In this document: one piece after another, positions 23,328 to 47,198 of the stretch | Layout of the letters: each line of letters starts with the position of its first letter | How positions within the stretch are numbered: the stretch's first letter is position 1 | NCBI GenBank assembly: GCA_021804485.1 | Contig: JAJZHM010000003.1 | Coordinates: 1 to 49,421 of the forward strand | DNA from: Pseudomonadota bacterium | GTDB taxonomy: Bacteria; Pseudomonadota; Gammaproteobacteria; Pseudomonadales; Moraxellaceae | DNA length: 49,421 nt | Reading direction: 5' to 3' | Made by a program: the position numbers and the translations under genes | The notes under the pieces: model-generated | The model's input: only the letters and a program-made list of their open reading frames with translations | Told to the model about the DNA's origin: nothing | The model's database searches: none

Positions 23328-24599
23328 TCAAAAGGCGGCGGCTGGGTCGGTAAGCCGCCGAATCGTCAGGGCGCAACGCTGCTCAATCAAGGTATTGATT
23401 TTCTCAACCACAGCATTGCCAGCAAAACTGTGTCCGGGGTCAGACTGGAGCGTGCGCGCCTTCGCTGGAAGTAACTTTGCCAATTCCAGAATGCGCCGTT
23501 TGGCCAGCGCCTTGGTAAAGCCCACGCCTTCTGCAAACTGCTCCCAATGCCGCGCCTGAACTTCGCTGAACTTGTATTTACTACCGATTTTCATCGCCAT
23601 CTTCTGCGTCAGGGTTGGATACACCGCCGTCGACAGCGTATCGTAGAGCGGTGCCAGAACAGGGGCCTTGCCTGAGTACAGCAGCGAGAAGTTCTTGGCG
23701 TGCGCATCATGATTGCCAATCAGTGCATTAAAGATCACATAGTCGAGCAGTCGCAGAACCTGCGGCGCATTGGGGCGCGTCGAACTGCGTACCAGATCAA
23801 AACACTGCGCCAGATCCGGGCCACCTTCATTCTGGTATTTCATTTCCGGCACCACGCCCAGTGCTTGGCAAAAGTCCTCTTGATGAAGCCGTTGCCGGTG
23901 CCCCTGGGCATCGATCCGTCGATCGTAACGCTCAACCAGTAGAAAGGAGCGATCCAATACCTGGTGAACTTTTGTCTTTGCCGGTTTGATCTGCATGGCC
24001 TCAGCCAGTGCCATGCAAAATCCTTCGTTGATCACGCTGTCTTCAACAGCGTGGATGGCAGGCTTCAGGATGTGTGAGCTCGGCGTGCCATTGAGAGGCA
24101 GCCCGATGCGCACACCATCAAAAACCACTGGCAGCTTGTCTTGGGCGCCAGCCAAGGAAAGCCGCAAGCCGTCTTTGCCTGCCAGCATAGGACGATGCGG
24201 CAATTCATCAAGGATGTCAACGACTTCATCGTCGTTTACCCATTGAACGTCATCGCTGTGGGTCGGAACAGGCAAAGCTTGTCCCGGCTGAAGGAACGTC
24301 ACGGCCCCAGCGCAGTCGCCGCCGATGTGGTCCAGCAGCGCAAAATCGTTCTGGCCAGACACCTGAAACTGCTGCGCAATCAGGCGGCGCATTTGCCCTT
24401 CGGGTAGAAGACCCGCAAAGAAGGGACGCGTTTTGCGATCATCGAACGGCTCCACTTGCAGGGGCAGTGAGGCGGACAAGGAAACGACGTCTTTGCGTGA
24501 CAGCCAACCGGGTGCGTAGCAAAAGTTTAGCCGTCCATCGACCAGCGCCAACGTGCCGACACGATCTGCGAATAGCCTGACTTCCAGCTCATGCGCCAT
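23328..24599 (-). CDS. hipA: HipA-type serine/threonine kinase toxin
   Basis: A 423-residue HipA-family kinase, the toxin of a type II toxin-antitoxin pair; E. coli HipA phosphorylates glutamyl-tRNA synthetase and induces persistence. Visible parts: the N-subdomain (LPLQVEPFDDRKTRPFFAGL), the P-loop-like SLAGAQDKLPVVF, KPAIHAVEDSVINEGFCMAL, the catalytic loop NALIGNHDAHAKNFSLL and the metal-binding YDTLSTAVYP. All key residues look intact. The ATG at 24599 has GAGGGTG before it and overlaps the hipB stop by 11 bases; an upstream start is less likely. It sits among degraded genes, pointing to an accessory segment. Confidence 0.93.
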   Translation of the reverse strand: MAHELEVRLFADRVGTLALVDGRLNFCYAPGWLSRKDVVSLSASLPLQVEPFDDRKTRPFFAGLLPEGQMRRLIAQQFQVSGQNDFALLDHIGGDCAGAVTFLQPGQALPVPTHSDDVQWVNDDEVVDILDELPHRPMLAGKDGLRLSLAGAQDKLPVVFDGVRIGLPLNGTPSSHILKPAIHAVEDSVINEGFCMALAEAMQIKPAKTKVHQVLDRSFLLVERYDRRIDAQGHRQRLHQEDFCQALGVVPEMKYQNEGGPDLAQCFDLVRSSTRPNAPQVLRLLDYVIFNALIGNHDAHAKNFSLLYSGKAPVLAPLYDTLSTAVYPTLTQKMAMKIGSKYKFSEVQARHWEQFAEGVGFTKALAKRRILELAKLLPAKARTLQSDPGHSFAGNAVVEKINTLIEQRCALTIRRLTDPAAAF

Positions 24600-24849
24600 G
24601 ATTGTCACCCTCGTGTCGATCATTGGCCACAGATGATGGCAATCCGCTCAACTGGATCTCTCCACCCAAGGCATCAATAACCCGCAGTACGTTTTCCAGC
24701 CGCAGGGTGGGCTTGCCTGCTTCAAGGTCGACGATGAAGCGCACCCCCACCCCAGCTGCCAGCGCCAACTGGGGCTGGGTCAGCCCCAGTTGCTTGCGAG
24801 CGGCACGTAGTGCATCGCCGAGTTGTTGCGGTGATCGAATGGGTGTCAT
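24589..24849 (-). CDS. hipB: HipB-like Xre-family antitoxin
   Basis: An 86-residue DNA-binding antitoxin with an Xre/Cro helix-turn-helix (LGDALRAARKQLGLTQPQLA, then LAAGVGVRFIVDLEAGKP). It should neutralise HipA and repress the operon by binding the palindromes upstream. The C-terminal tail (SVANDRHEGDNHGA) is flexible and overlaps the hipA start. Three copies of TTCCCG-TT-CGGGAA in the promoter region are its likely operators. Confidence 0.9.
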   Translation of the reverse strand: MTPIRSPQQLGDALRAARKQLGLTQPQLALAAGVGVRFIVDLEAGKPTLRLENVLRVIDALGGEIQLSGLPSSVANDRHEGDNHGA

Positions 24850-25631: not shown

Positions 25632-25920
25632 ATGCAGCGCGTGATCGCCTACATTGACAGCTTTAATCTTTATTTCGGGCTCAAGGACAAAAACTGGAAG
25701 AAATACTACTGGCTGGACCTTCCTGCCCTGGCTCATGCACTACTCAAACCAGACCAGCAACTGCTGGCAACACATTATTTCACCGCTCGCATTCGCCTCA
25801 AGGGCAACAACCATTCGGACATGCAACGTCAAACCACGTATCTGGAGCATTGGCCACTAAGAAAAGTCTTATTCTTCACTATGGGCATTATCTGCAAAAG
25901 AAACGCACATGTCGCAACTG
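25632..25920 (+). pseudogene. Frameshifted NYN-domain (LabA/DUF88-like) gene
   Basis: The start [19 protein letters not shown] with YID-x-FNLY is the NYN ribonuclease-fold N-terminus, continuing [18 protein letters not shown] and [20 protein letters not shown]. Loss of one G near 25847 shifts the frame. Adding it back gives [19 protein letters not shown] and [10 protein letters not shown], the start of the zinc-ribbon often present in these proteins. The rest of the gene is missing, because the sequence passes into a DNA-methylase fragment at TGTGGTGCC. Three upstream palindromes suggest the promoter region was kept. Confidence 0.75.
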
Positions 25921-26090
25921 TGGTGCCATTCCACTGGAAGCACAACGCCTAGGTCTGGAAAGTTACGCTTCCGATCTCAACCCTGTTGCCATCACCATCA
26001 ACAAAGCGATGATTGATACCTCGCCCAAATTTGCTCGACGTCCTCCCATCAATCCAGTATGGAACCAACAGAAGGACGAGCAAAAAGCCA
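25918..26090 (+). pseudogene. Internal fragment of a DUF1156-type adenine DNA methylase
   Basis: Continuing in the restored frame after the NYN zinc-ribbon, the translation reads [20 protein letters not shown] and [20 protein letters not shown], then [12 protein letters not shown]. This is the segment after SAM-binding motif I of DUF1156-family DNA methylases, which occur in multi-gene anti-phage loci. The upstream and downstream parts, including the catalytic NPPY-type motif, are absent. It fuses in frame to the NYN remnant at a GCGA-like junction (CGA|IPLE) and runs into the dispersed repeat. It is dead. Confidence 0.75.
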
Positions 26091-26095
26091 TGGCC

Positions 26096-26227
26096 CGTTG
26101 TCCGCACGTTGTCATGGTGATCATTGCCAAAAGCAAAAAAAAAAAAAAAACGGAATGTGAATATCAAAAACTTGAGCCTGACAGTCCTGATTTTCGAATC
26201 AACCGTTCATTTTTTCAAAAAAATGAC
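26096..26227 (+). repeat. Dispersed repeat, copy 2
   Basis: The partner of 706-829 in the same orientation, about 90 percent identical, with a 16-base A homopolymer at 26135-26150 in place of 7 A. Its right end contains TCATTTTTT-CA-AAAAAATGA, a perfect AT-rich palindrome. It lies 20 bases from the 3' end of thrB, mirroring copy 1 next to murB. Confidence 0.8.
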
Positions 26228-26247
26228 TGATAAAATTTCCTGTCCCA

Positions 26248-42766: not shown

Positions 42767-43990
42767 TTAATGACGATTGATCTGCCGACTGAGAAGCTCG
42801 AGTTCATCTTCAACATGAGCAGAATCTTCCTGATTCAGTAGAAAACGCTGCAGAACCTCAAGGGCTTTGGCAGAAAACTGCACCCCTGCATCCCGATCGA
42901 AGTATTGGGCCACCCCTTGGGCATGTTCGAGAATACCCCTGCTCGCCTCGATAAAAGGATCACGTTCGATCTGACCACCCCGATGAGCAGCCAGCATACC
43001 CACTGAACGAGCGATATCATCCTGAACATTTTCCTGGGCAAAAAATTCGAGAAACTGCCGAGCCTGATCAGGCTGCCTCGTCTTTGCGGAAATAACCAGA
43101 ACATCCGTAGGCGAGTCCTCATAGAGCGGCACATGGGCATCAACCACGGGAAAAGGAACCAGGGCGATATCAGCGCGCATCGGTGTCGGGATCTGTGCGG
43201 TCCAGAAGTTTCCCATCAGCATCATCGCTGCCTGACGATGATATAAAAACGGCAGAACATCCCGCCAGCCAAGCATTTCATGTCCTTGCATAAAACAATT
43301 CGATCGAATCAACTGTTGCCATAAAGCCAGCACCTGAGTCACCCGGGGATCATGCCAGAACTGTCTGCCTCGGAGCAGTTCCTGATGAAATTGCAGCCCG
43401 TTAAGACGCAGATCGAGATAGTCGAACCAGGCAGCAACCGGCCAGAGATCCTTGGAGCCCAGAGCAATTGGCGTAATCTGTCTTTGCCTCAGTAAGAAAC
43501 AGGTATCAAGTAGTTCCTTCCAGGTCTGGGGAGGCCGAAGTCCATAGGCACTAAACACAGCCACATTGTAATAAATACCCCAAGCATAATAATCCAGTGG
43601 CAATCCATAATGCAGCCCATTGACAGCAACCGCACTTGAAGCAGCCGGGCTCAATTGATTCTTCCATTCTGCCTGCCATTGTGTCTCTACCGATAAAACA
43701 AGATGATTCTGAACAGCTTCTTCGATATCCCGACCACCAAACATGAACAGGACATCCGGAGGATCTTTTTGCTGCAGTGCAGCAAAAAGCAATTTTTTAT
43801 AGGCTTCATTTTCCATGACGTTCAGCTGAACATGGAACCCTGGATGCAATGCCTCGAACCTACTTACCTCCTGAACAAAAACACTGCGCTGCGCGCCGTT
43901 GACGGCCAGTAACCAGACACGCAATGGCTGGGCCTGCGTCGCCATACTGAACAACAGAAAAAAAGTTAAAACAAAGCAATTAATACTCAT
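42767..43990 (-). CDS. Extracellular solute-binding protein (sugar-type, family 1)
   Basis: A 407-residue periplasmic protein with a signal peptide (MSINCFVLTFFLLFSMATQAQ). The fold signatures of sugar/polyol binding proteins (MalE/UgpB type) are visible: FEALHPGFHVQLNVMENEAY, PPDVLFMFGGRDIE, LPLDYYAWGIYYNVAVFSAYG, PQTWKELLDTC, and the late ARQFLEFFAQE. The ATG at 43990 has AGGAACG before it and starts the signal peptide; an upstream start is unnatural. No MalFGK-like permease or ATPase is adjacent. It follows the maltoporin gene by 35 bases and a histidine kinase further upstream, so a sensory role with the kinase is as likely as transport. Confidence 0.88.
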   Translation of the reverse strand: MSINCFVLTFFLLFSMATQAQPLRVWLLAVNGAQRSVFVQEVSRFEALHPGFHVQLNVMENEAYKKLLFAALQQKDPPDVLFMFGGRDIEEAVQNHLVLSVETQWQAEWKNQLSPAASSAVAVNGLHYGLPLDYYAWGIYYNVAVFSAYGLRPPQTWKELLDTCFLLRQRQITPIALGSKDLWPVAAWFDYLDLRLNGLQFHQELLRGRQFWHDPRVTQVLALWQQLIRSNCFMQGHEMLGWRDVLPFLYHRQAAMMLMGNFWTAQIPTPMRADIALVPFPVVDAHVPLYEDSPTDVLVISAKTRQPDQARQFLEFFAQENVQDDIARSVGMLAAHRGGQIERDPFIEASRGILEHAQGVAQYFDRDAGVQFSAKALEVLQRFLLNQEDSAHVEDELELLSRQINRH

Positions 43991-44025
43991 GGCTCGTTCC
44001 TGATCAACAGCAGCACAACCACCGT

Positions 44026-45378
44026 TCAGTACCATGATGATCCCCACCAGGTCTCAACTTGGAGCCCCGTTGAAAAATCAGATCGTGTGGCCCCCAGCGG
44101 ACCGGCATTATTATTGGCGCTTATTGTTGCAATGGCTGCCTGATTCCAGTGGGCATAGGTAAAATACCAGCGCATTTCTGGCCGATCCAGAAATCCCCTG
44201 CCAAGAGACAGTGTCGGTGCGATTGTATATTTGGCAAGCCACTCAACAGGTGCTCCCGGATAAGCAACCCGGTCACGCGCAACCTCCATCTGCACCTTGA
44301 AATGACGTGCAACGATATACTCCGGACGAATCCCAATGGAATCCCAACGGGAAGATCCACCATAGACCGGTGATTGATCAGCCTGATGCAGGATATCGAA
44401 TGAAGCGGCAAAATGCTCATTGGGTTGCAGGATCAAGTATTCAAAAAAACGTAATCGACGATCCGCTGAGCCAAGCAGAGTTGAACCGGACTGACCCATA
44501 CGGTTACAGCAAAGGGCATCCGGAGCACTGGCATCCGGAACAGAAGTGAACGCAGCATAAGGGGTCGCCGTCTGATAAACACCCGGATCACCCCGGCCGG
44601 TTCCAGGACCAACCCCAAACTGGATTCCAAACGTATTCCATCCCCAGGAAGAATGCTGATGATCAAAAAGGTGAAGGTTATAGCCACTGTGTCTACGGGT
44701 TTCTGTCCGAGGCGAAGCGGGCAGAATCCAGCCAGCAATGACATCCAGTGTTCCCAATGCATGCAGCGGAATATCCCTGTAGAGCAGATCCTGGCGAATG
44801 GCCGAATTGGAATCGTGAATCATTACAGAACCATTGGGTGGTATGTTATTGGTATCGTTATCTTTGAATACGGCATAGCTCAAATTTCCACCGATTGGCA
44901 CCGGCCAGCGATCCATACCTGCGCCCACACCATCAAGATTGATATACTGCAGATCCATGCTGTAAATATCCTGCCGGCCATAATAGCGTTCACCGATCCA
45001 CAGACGTGATCCTCCCAAAGCATCGAGTCCAGATGCTTGAATGAAAAGCTGGGCCAGTTGGGGCGTTGCACCAACGCCCGAAGTACTGGAGTAGTCATTA
45101 AGCATGGCATAGCCAGTAAACTTGAGGCCATCATCCGCTTGTGCAATGGTTCGGGCATAGCCCAGTTCGATATAGGTATCACATTCATTACCGAGACGAT
45201 AACCGTGGCCATCACCATTACCAAGGTAGTAACAGTTCTCTGGGCCACCTTGATGCGACACGCCAGCCCCAGCGCGCACATAGCCAGCAAATTCACCTGC
45301 ATCCAGATCGGCCCAAAGCTGGAACTGGGTAAAGAGCAAAACAATGGCGATGAAAACGGGTCTCAGAAGAGCATTCAT
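44026..45378 (-). CDS. LamB-type maltoporin
   Basis: A 450-residue outer-membrane sugar porin with a signal peptide (cleaved after LWA near residue 23). The start of the barrel, FAGYVRAGAGVSHQGG and YRLGNECDTYIELGYA, matches LamB, as do LFIQASGLDALGG-x-x-LWIGERYYGRQDIY and RRLRFFEYLI. The C-terminal SSWY places an aromatic near the terminus for BAM recognition. It should admit maltodextrin-like or other oligosaccharides. It starts 8 bases after the histidine kinase stop and precedes the binding protein. Confidence 0.9.
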   Translation of the reverse strand: MNALLRPVFIAIVLLFTQFQLWADLDAGEFAGYVRAGAGVSHQGGPENCYYLGNGDGHGYRLGNECDTYIELGYARTIAQADDGLKFTGYAMLNDYSSTSGVGATPQLAQLFIQASGLDALGGSRLWIGERYYGRQDIYSMDLQYINLDGVGAGMDRWPVPIGGNLSYAVFKDNDTNNIPPNGSVMIHDSNSAIRQDLLYRDIPLHALGTLDVIAGWILPASPRTETRRHSGYNLHLFDHQHSSWGWNTFGIQFGVGPGTGRGDPGVYQTATPYAAFTSVPDASAPDALCCNRMGQSGSTLLGSADRRLRFFEYLILQPNEHFAASFDILHQADQSPVYGGSSRWDSIGIRPEYIVARHFKVQMEVARDRVAYPGAPVEWLAKYTIAPTLSLGRGFLDRPEMRWYFTYAHWNQAAIATISANNNAGPLGATRSDFSTGLQVETWWGSSWY

Positions 45379-45386
45379 ATCTTCTC

Positions 45387-46895
45387 TTAAATCTTATCCG
45401 GAGTCTTTCGAGGCAGAACCAGAACGAATAGTGCCCCTGATCCTGAAGTGGGAATCTGTACCTTGATTGTGCCCTTGAGTACACCGGTTACCACATTATG
45501 TACTGTATGGAGTCCGAGCCCAGTTCCTCCCCTGCCCATACGGGTGGTAAAAAATGGCTCAAAAACATGCGGCCGATGTTCAGAGGCAATTCCCTGACCA
45601 TTATCTTCACATTCAATCGTGACTTCATGACCTGACCTGCTTAAACGGCTTCGAAGAATAATTTGGGCATCGTCACGATGCTGCTCAAATCCATGCTGGA
45701 TGGCATTAAGGATCAGTTGACTGATAACCTGACTAAGAGGGCCTGGAAAGCTGTCCATCAATATTGGCTCATTGTGTTCACAGCGAGCAAGAATGCCTGC
45801 CTGAGCGAGCATGTACTGGTGTGTTCCCAATATCTCGCTGACCAGTTCCTGCAAAATGAACGATTGACGCTGCACACTGGACTGATCGATCGAAATCTGT
45901 TTGAACTTGGTAACCAGGTCAGCAGCCTTGGAGACGTTGTTGACCATGACCGTAGAACAGTCAACCAGCTGAAGCAGATATTCCTGTAATGCGGTTTTAG
46001 TGATTGGGCCCACAGCAACACTTTGGTTCAGTATCTGGCTGCTTTCCTGAATCAGCGTTGCAACAGTAAGTGCATTCCCGATTGGTGTATTCAGTTCATG
46101 GGCAATACCAGCGACCAGAACTCCAAGAGCTGCCATTTTTTCAGTCTGCACCAGCATTTCCTTAGCCTGCGTCAGTTGTGCAAGGGCTTGAACTGCTTGA
46201 GCTTCAGCCCGCTGCCTTGCTGCAAGATCATTGAGTAACCGCCGGATAATCCCATTTACTTGCTGAGCGACTTGGCCGACTTCATCCTGATTTTCTTGAA
46301 GTGTGATGATCGATGCAATGGGATCAGATACCGCCACTGCACCAGCCAAGGCACTTTTCAGTTCAACTAGTCTGCGGAATATGAAAATATTCAGAATCAG
46401 GCGCAGGGCAACAATCAGGCTCAGATCAAGAACTACAACTTCGATAATCGTCTGTCGCACCAGGATATTCAGGGTATTCTGCATGGGAACACGGGAAAAA
46501 TAGGCGGTCACAACCCCCAGGACAATGGGATGATGGGCAATTGCATAGGTGACCGGGAATCGTCTGATCTGCAGGTGATCCTCAGGAGGAGGAGACGAAC
46601 GTGTTGAATAATGCACTCCTGAGTTGTCAATCACATCCAGATAGGGAACAGATGCACTCATTTCCGAATTCAGTTGCTCACGCACCTGACTGGCATCAAA
46701 ATTCCACAAAGGTAAGCGCAGGGACGTCTGCAGCCGGTTCTGCAAAGCCACCTCATCCTGAAGCATTTGCTGCAGCAAGTGCCGAGAAGTAGTCTGATAA
46801 TTGATGGCACCAAGAAGCATCAAGATTGCTGAAACGAGGAGAATCAGCAATCCATTGACTTTGCGGGCAATCTTGCCAGAAATCATGAACATCAT
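45387..46895 (-). CDS. Membrane sensor histidine kinase
   Basis: A 502-residue kinase. Helix 1 (LLILLVSAILMLLGAINY, ~16-33), a ~110-residue periplasmic domain, helix 2 (~150-175), then a HAMP-like linker, a coiled coil (ARQRAEAQAVQALAQLTQAK), and HisKA with GVLVAGIAHELNTPIGNAL (phospho-His about 266). The catalytic ATPase has N-box SQLILNAIQHGF, ECEDNGQGIASEH and GRGGTGLGLHTVHNVV. All kinase motifs look intact. No response regulator is adjacent. It is the first gene of an operon with a maltoporin and a sugar-binding protein, suggesting that sugar, possibly bound to that protein, is the signal. Confidence 0.93.
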   Translation of the reverse strand: MMFMISGKIARKVNGLLILLVSAILMLLGAINYQTTSRHLLQQMLQDEVALQNRLQTSLRLPLWNFDASQVREQLNSEMSASVPYLDVIDNSGVHYSTRSSPPPEDHLQIRRFPVTYAIAHHPIVLGVVTAYFSRVPMQNTLNILVRQTIIEVVVLDLSLIVALRLILNIFIFRRLVELKSALAGAVAVSDPIASIITLQENQDEVGQVAQQVNGIIRRLLNDLAARQRAEAQAVQALAQLTQAKEMLVQTEKMAALGVLVAGIAHELNTPIGNALTVATLIQESSQILNQSVAVGPITKTALQEYLLQLVDCSTVMVNNVSKAADLVTKFKQISIDQSSVQRQSFILQELVSEILGTHQYMLAQAGILARCEHNEPILMDSFPGPLSQVISQLILNAIQHGFEQHRDDAQIILRSRLSRSGHEVTIECEDNGQGIASEHRPHVFEPFFTTRMGRGGTGLGLHTVHNVVTGVLKGTIKVQIPTSGSGALFVLVLPRKTPDKI

Positions 46896-47198
46896 GACAA
46901 AGTCCGGACAATCGTTGTGCTAAAAGGCAAATCCTTGCCCACCCTGTATCGATGCTCATCACCGCTTCAACCCGAGAAGAACGATTGAAGCGGATACCCA
47001 CTCAATGACAACCAGTCTGCGGATTAAAACGGTTCTACCTTATGCCAAGGACAGGCCCAGTCCGTGCAACGGCAATTATGAAATTAGTATAGGTGACGAT
47101 AAACGGAAGCATTAGTACCGTTTATCGTCCATCGGGAAGAAGCTTACTGGCAAACCGAGCAAAAGGATGACACATAAGCTCAAGCCATTCGGGTTCCA
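46896..47198. promoter_or_regulatory. Regulatory region of the kinase-porin-binding-protein operon with a 12-bp inverted repeat
   Basis: 303 bases between the lipocalin stop and the kinase start, containing the kinase promoter. At 47095-47129 GACGATAAACGG and CCGTTTATCGTC form a perfect 12-bp inverted repeat around 11 bases. There is no T-run on either strand, so it is more operator-like than terminator-like, though a 3' processing hairpin for the lipocalin transcript is possible. No confident -35/-10 pair was seen. Confidence 0.6.

Follow-up and report, generated by a model that had tools for sequence, protein, structure and literature searches.

A sensor histidine kinase (HK), a LamB-type porin and a sugar-binding protein (SBP) are encoded one after the other on the minus strand of the window (the whole stretch of 49,421 nucleotides analysed here), and we propose that they make up a permease-free sugar-sensing operon. 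LamB would pass a sugar, likely of the galactose or galactoside type, across the outer membrane, and the stand-alone SBP would catch it in the periplasm. Once loaded with the sugar, the SBP would dock on the HK's periplasmic sensor domain and so alter how active the kinase is towards a response regulator whose gene lies elsewhere. We judge the chances of this proposal to be evenly balanced. It is built on the genes themselves, their order and its conservation, the motifs of the HK, the lack of a sugar-type representative among the six BPD permeases of the genome and the nearest solved relatives of the SBP. If it is right, sugar sensing has been split from sugar uptake and a maltoporin has been recruited into signalling.

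Gene order and products of the trio

All three open reading frames are intact. The HK gene (502 aa; 45387..46895, minus strand; identified by ORF, Pfam, motifs and alignment) is followed after 8 bases by the LamB-family porin gene (450 aa; 44026..45378, minus; PF02264 and alignment with solved maltoporins) and, after another 35 bases, by that of a periplasmic, AcbH-like SBP of the SBP_bac_1 family (407 aa; 42767..43990, minus; Pfam, structure comparison and alignment). These coordinates agree with the sequence-only reading, which had described three complete genes on one strand with the same gaps and order. For the SBP gene, the ATG at 43990, with an AGGA 7 bases before it, is a more likely start than the GTG at 44047 of the ORF list, with which the gene would run into that of LamB. 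Lipocalin and Sel1-repeat genes flank the trio upstream, dnaX and mpl downstream. Neither a permease nor a response regulator adjoins it, as had been claimed, a response regulator gene lying about 8 kb away (34425-33415), and there is no ATPase gene inside the operon. The two tRNAs that Rfam detects in the window are both distant from the trio and its flank. Also in the window are a HipA-like protein (23328-24623, minus strand; HipA_C E 6.7e-53), preceded upstream by a 100-aa ORF with no Pfam match, hence no HipB was identified, and a 126-aa plus-strand ORF (25850-26230) amid few long ORFs, which resembles a DNA methylase fragment by eye and has no Pfam match.

The HK consists of a membrane helix, a periplasmic sensor domain, a second membrane helix, a HAMP-like linker (by alignment only, Pfam making no call), HisKA and HATPase. 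The HATPase_c domain scored 72 bits, above the cut-off (E 6.9e-20), and has its N, G1, F and G2 motifs; HisKA was weak (22.4 bits against a cut-off of 26.9), with AHELNTP starting at residue 265 and the histidine at 266. The HK therefore has both the periplasmic sensor and the intact catalytic motifs of the SBP-activated kinases. Its sensor is probably a Cache/PAS-like domain of about residues 35-145, in which the motif LPLWNFD begins at residue 61. The AlphaFold model (pLDDT 77, pTM 0.53) has a small beta sheet surrounded by long helices, and the structure search returned an integrative model of WalK as the best match (Z 12.8, 3.4 A over 186 residues), followed by many middling Cache/PAS-like sensors at Z about 9. 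The sensor falls outside the CHASE5 family (PF17149), at 14.7 bits against a cut-off of 27.

The porin matches PF02264 over the full model (1-378 of 378; 254.1 bits, cut-off 25.1, E 5.5e-75) and the SBP matches SBP_bac_1 with an E of 1.9e-32, which bears out the LamB-like porin and sugar-binding protein of the sequence-only reading. Compared with LamB of E. coli, Y6, R8, R33, Y41, E43, R109, D111 and D116 are kept, while Y118 (Q144 here), W74 (G) and W358 (L) are replaced; all these residues presumably have roles in the sugar path. The replacements alter this path in part, so the specificity may differ, and judging from the alignment we are likely dealing with a LamB-type sugar pore of altered selectivity.

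By sequence, the best solved relative of the SBP is 4g68 (E 1.6e-32), from a xylan-using bacterium, slightly ahead of AcbH (5.8e-31). By fold the nearest is AcbH, since a Foldseek search with the predicted structure (pLDDT 90) gave AcbH, with E values from 2.4e-29 to 2.2e-27, in all of the top five rows. According to PMC8233162, AcbH binds beta-D-galactopyranose. Its D-R pair (chain positions 372 and 373) corresponds in the alignment to D365/R366 of the SBP, a pair located in QYFDRDA and conserved without exception in the 15 SBPs aligned. The AcbH entries 3oo8 and 3oo9 carry substitutions of precisely this pair, D to E and R to K respectively, and the substituted residues may touch the ligand. 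The likeness to AcbH, together with the galactosidase operons of the relatives described below, makes a galactose or galactoside the most likely ligand, as far as sequence and predicted structure can indicate.

Conservation of the trio and permeases of the genome

We searched 117 related genomes for the three genes. Matches to the SBP were found in five (E up to 1e-10), to LamB in five (1e-10) and to the kinase in four (1e-60), the genome of the window being included in each count, and all three genes together appeared only in this genome and in a sister genome of the same genus (G002, contig L002). There, the order Sel1-lipocalin-HK-LamB-SBP is as in the window and the tight spacing of the SBP is kept; dnaX sits near the end of another contig, so that the comparison of junctions covers the upstream side. 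The three-gene order, for which the sequence-only reading had asked other genomes to be searched, thus recurs in the sister genome, but it was seen in just these two genomes. As the order recurs between genomes in which the proteins are 69-81% identical (HK 70%, LamB 81% with its start region left out, SBP 69%) and synonymous sites are at or near saturation, the arrangement is hardly due to chance. The start region of LamB deviates in the sister contig, which is of low coverage (1.5). Against the model, the trio is absent from the third searched genome of the genus (G001), where neither SBP nor LamB gave a match and the genes upstream of dnaX differ from those of the window. In a search of 369 genomes of the class at 1e-12, LamB matched its own genome alone. 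At the three other LamB loci among the 117 relatives, reading of the 1.5-kb flanks found neither an SBP nor an HK.

The dN values between the window and the sister contig were 0.21 for the HK, 0.12 for LamB and 0.19 for the SBP, with 68-77% of the synonymous sites differing, at or near saturation. Since dS is saturated for some genes, only the contrast of dN with dS is informative. Four flanking genes behaved in the same way (dN 0.11-0.21). These low dN values against nearly saturated synonymous sites, similar to those of the flanking genes, indicate from the alignments that the trio is kept by purifying selection and has diverged at the pace of its neighbours.

SBP_bac_1 proteins normally supply BPD-type permeases. 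We searched the whole genome with PF00528, a search that was positive in 14 of 14 known genomes used as control, and found six BPD-type permeases. From their neighbourhoods we read them as two pairs, one for oligopeptides (Yej/Opp-like) and one for phosphate (PstC/PstA), plus a nitrate/taurine-like and a molybdate (ModB-like) permease, and none of the six, read by eye, was of sugar type. The sister genome also has six, of the same types by reading and none for sugars, and G001 has five by the same search. The BPD permease genes that a CUT1 (MalEFGK-type) system has linked to its SBP gene are therefore lacking here. The genome is 94% complete, so that a sugar permease could have been missed; still, because the matching sugar pump seems absent, the trio more likely detects a sugar than feeds on it.

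Relatives of the binding protein and of the sensor

Within the order, 40 of the 390 genomes searched contain relatives of the SBP (E up to 1e-20), and within the class a profile search at 1e-60 found them in 7 of 369, both counts including its own. In a plasmid collection, the SBP has 525 matching records and the HK has 259, none of them reaching 60% identity. Larger stretches were opened around part of the SBP-bearing relatives, and a tree was built from the SBP ORFs of the opened loci (E below 1e-25, de-duplicated; 45 rows with that of the window). A row was labelled as permease-linked when a MalF, MalG or galactosidase gene lay within 4.5 kb. This was the case for 28 of the 45, 13 with MalF/MalG and 15 with a galactosidase only, many of the latter coming from short loci. 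All 28 fall in one clade of 32 rows (support 100/100), together with four lone ones. The SBPs of the window, of the sister contig and of a genome of another family (G120) stand outside it, as do ten other lone SBPs; the row of the window is itself labelled lone as its locus ends before the HK. Whether homologous loci normally carry permeases, a finding that the sequence-only reading had named as a refutation, thus received a divided answer: most of the SBPs adjoin galactosidase or MalFG-like genes, but that of the window lies outside their clade. For this reason a recent loss of permeases at the locus is not the simplest story. Placement in the tree is unsure for six rows with long branches and for six of unusual composition (the window, L002 and L074 being among these last).

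In G120, a kinase of the same layout is encoded directly upstream of the SBP gene, and in the 16 kb opened around the pair neither a porin nor a permease was recognised. The three HK-linked SBPs (window, sister and G120) are found on the same side of a branch whose support is 75/75, unstarred, and this is no more than suggestive. Lone relatives of the SBP with no MalFG-like permease or kinase recognised nearby were seen at L003:7968-9185, L015, L060, L061, L065, L070, L075, L076, L077 and L079. Another arrangement was found in G077 (L016:4480-10629), where a chemoreceptor gene directly follows the SBP gene of a galactoside operon and precedes the gene of a PAS-containing kinase, possibly an SBP-chemoreceptor link.

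A sensor profile built from the sensors of the window, the sister contig and G120 detected 22 places in 16 of the 369 genomes of the class, its own included, and the 21 others were all opened, their neighbours being read from mechanically chosen ORFs, so that a short or hidden gene can escape. Eleven of them resemble chemoreceptors (MCPs), and by reading none of these 11 has a directly adjacent SBP gene. By hhalign, the sensor of the window matches this group more closely (99.0%, E 3.5e-18) than it does the CHASE5 group (95.5%, E 1.4e-8), and this likeness to sensors without an adjoining SBP gene speaks against the model. The ten other places comprise kinases, short sensor-HAMP proteins and one case, L191, in which GGDEF and EAL can be read in fragments from the frames that follow. 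Eight of these ten (L118, L124, L191, L192, L194, L195, L196 and L197) have a directly adjacent SBP-like gene on the same strand, and L121 and L193 have none. Pfam placed these SBP-like proteins in SBP_bac_3 above the cut-off in L194 and L195 and below it in four, and gave nothing relevant for L191 and L197; that of L191 is homologous to the others by BLAST, and that of L197 was assigned by reading alone. Five of the eight pairings belong to one family and two to another, so they amount to about three independent pairings. As a control, none of 11 kinases counted as lacking this sensor adjoins an SBP gene of the query families, although this control is small, sees only those families and shows only one side of the kinase at some loci.

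The plasmid collection provided an independent check. The N-terminus of a CHASE5 receptor matched 25 of its records, of which 12 were opened, the remaining 13 being mostly of the same genera. In 6 of the 12 (Rhizobium indicum, Vibrio sp. THAF191d, Caballeronia sp. SBC2, V. campbellii, Photobacterium sp. DA100 and Vibrio sp. THAF190c) the receptor gene has a divergently oriented SBP-like gene as its neighbour, and in the other 6 it has none; in R. indicum the two are 669 bases apart and a mechanical ORF intervenes. SBP_bac_3 was above the cut-off in four of these genes and just below it in Caballeronia, and THAF191d has a weak ABC_sub_bind match. CHASE5-like receptors of differing outputs therefore often adjoin a lone SBP-like gene of at least two SBP families (the eight loci named above; L206, L207, L209, L211, L212 and L213). 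The phrase "CHASE5 domain" was not found in the open-access library searched, and the papers with "CHASE5" among the matches listed look unrelated by title and start of the abstract; the pairing of such a receptor with a lone SBP gene gives a testable answer to the function of CHASE5. The periplasmic sensors with a conserved LW motif, a superfamily to which CHASE5 belongs, might serve quite generally as docking sites for stand-alone binding proteins, with partners from several families (SBP_bac_1 in the window, elsewhere SBP_bac_3-like and perhaps ABC_sub_bind-like ones) and several outputs (kinase, hybrid kinase and cyclic-di-GMP type), the window being a version with its own porin that would never import the sugar. 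We offer this generalization tentatively and think it rather doubtful, and, the sensor of the window being closer to those of chemoreceptors, the CHASE5 pattern backs the sensing model for the window only indirectly.

The sensing model, its alternatives and known systems

Four parts of the model are inferred: the ligand, the docking, the direction in which the HK responds and its partner regulator. Regarding the partner, the core of the HK is best matched by AtoS among the NCBIfam models, with ZraS third, and ZraS comes first among solved structures. The partners of AtoS and ZraS are sigma54 activators. The genome has 61 receiver domains, and no partner response regulator was found in the seven stretches opened among them, because each of the three NtrC-like regulators seen lies beside a kinase gene, which leaves no orphan NtrC-type regulator as a candidate in these stretches. 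Upstream of the HK, sequence comparison detected a block of 19 bases identical in the sister contig (46926..46944, minus) that contains GGCAA-N4-TTGCC and the spacing TGG-N8-TTGC. It might be operator-like or sigma54-like; the latter pattern occurs 20 times in the window against 13.2 (sd 3.75) expected, so enrichment is not clear. A repeat scan gave a 12-bp perfect inverted repeat without a T run between the lipocalin and HK genes (47095..47129, minus), possibly a boundary. A second perfect inverted repeat, of 9 bp around a loop of 14 bases, lies at 46962-46993, 67-98 bases upstream of the HK start. Neither window repeat has an inverted repeat in the corresponding stretch of the sister genome, and promoter and terminator scans showed no excess over shuffles (2 vs 5.9 and 5 vs 4.9).

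The HK might instead sense a signal of its own directly and control LamB and the SBP, these gathering sugar for a non-BPD transporter encoded elsewhere or in the missing 6% of the genome. With the Cache/PAS-like fold predicted for its sensor, as found in many direct ligand binders, the HK could bind a small ligand by itself, its closest sensor relatives do without an adjacent SBP gene, and a porin plus an SBP is a normal uptake pair. However, the permeases that an SBP_bac_1 protein usually serves are of BPD type, and a sugar-type one was not found in either genome with the trio, so we hold direct sensing to be somewhat unlikely. A chance neighbourhood of the three genes, or one that reflects only a shared promoter, with an unrelated role for the HK, is improbable in our opinion. 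The LamB loci of relatives in which, by reading, the flanks had no SBP or HK would fit such an accident, as would AgtS and AruS of P. aeruginosa, which according to PMC11113362 are encoded near SBP genes without any binding between the proteins, cases that show how gene adjacency can mislead; but the order and the tight SBP spacing are kept in the sister genome, and the HK-SBP pair reappears in another family.

Least of all do we favour the trio as the remnant of a galactoside ABC operon that lost its permease and enzyme genes, with SBP and LamB lingering functionless, which we consider very improbable. This would agree with the many SBPs of the tree that adjoin galactosidase or MalFG-like genes. 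It is weakened by the low dN against nearly saturated synonymous sites, as well as by the genes being open in two genomes (the start of LamB differing in the low-coverage contig) and by the position of the SBP, which is not nested in the permease-linked clade. The sequence-only reading had regarded the trio as a self-contained module to admit, bind and sense. That no sugar-type permease was found in either genome and that G120 has an HK-SBP pair favour this sensing module; its restriction to two genomes and the permease-linked or galactosidase-linked majority of SBP relatives count against it.

The porin of the window and the maltoporin LamB of E. coli have PF02264 in common and differ in a partly altered sugar path. 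AcbH of Actinoplanes, nearest to the SBP by fold at about 22% identity, carries a PDB name that assigns it to an ABC transporter as binding protein, while the SBP of the window has no linked permease. Galactoside ABC operons elsewhere in the order and the class encode SBPs homologous to that of the window (about 30-35% identical where listed) along with MalF, MalG, galactosidases and, by reading, GalK/GalT-like proteins at some loci; the window locus has neither the permeases nor the enzymes, and its SBP falls outside the clade of these operons.

SBP-activated histidine kinases as a kind are described in PMC11113362, according to which the genes are adjacent or very near in 10 of 11 characterised couples and P. 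aeruginosa PAO1 has two cases near SBP genes among 58 sensor kinases. Signalling from an SBP to a kinase encoded by an adjoining gene is therefore already known, LuxP-LuxQ, TorT-TorS and ChiS with its chitin-binding protein being examples. New here, as far as searched, are the LamB porin in the same operon and a genome in which no sugar-type BPD permease was found; no title or abstract opening among the papers listed in literature searches described the HK-LamB-SBP trio. The window thus differs from these couples by the LamB gene placed between the two others (also in the sister contig), by its lack of a detected sugar-type BPD permease and by a docking that is only proposed. It has in common with LuxP-LuxQ, TorT-TorS and ChiS the gene of a periplasmic binding protein next to or near that of a membrane HK.
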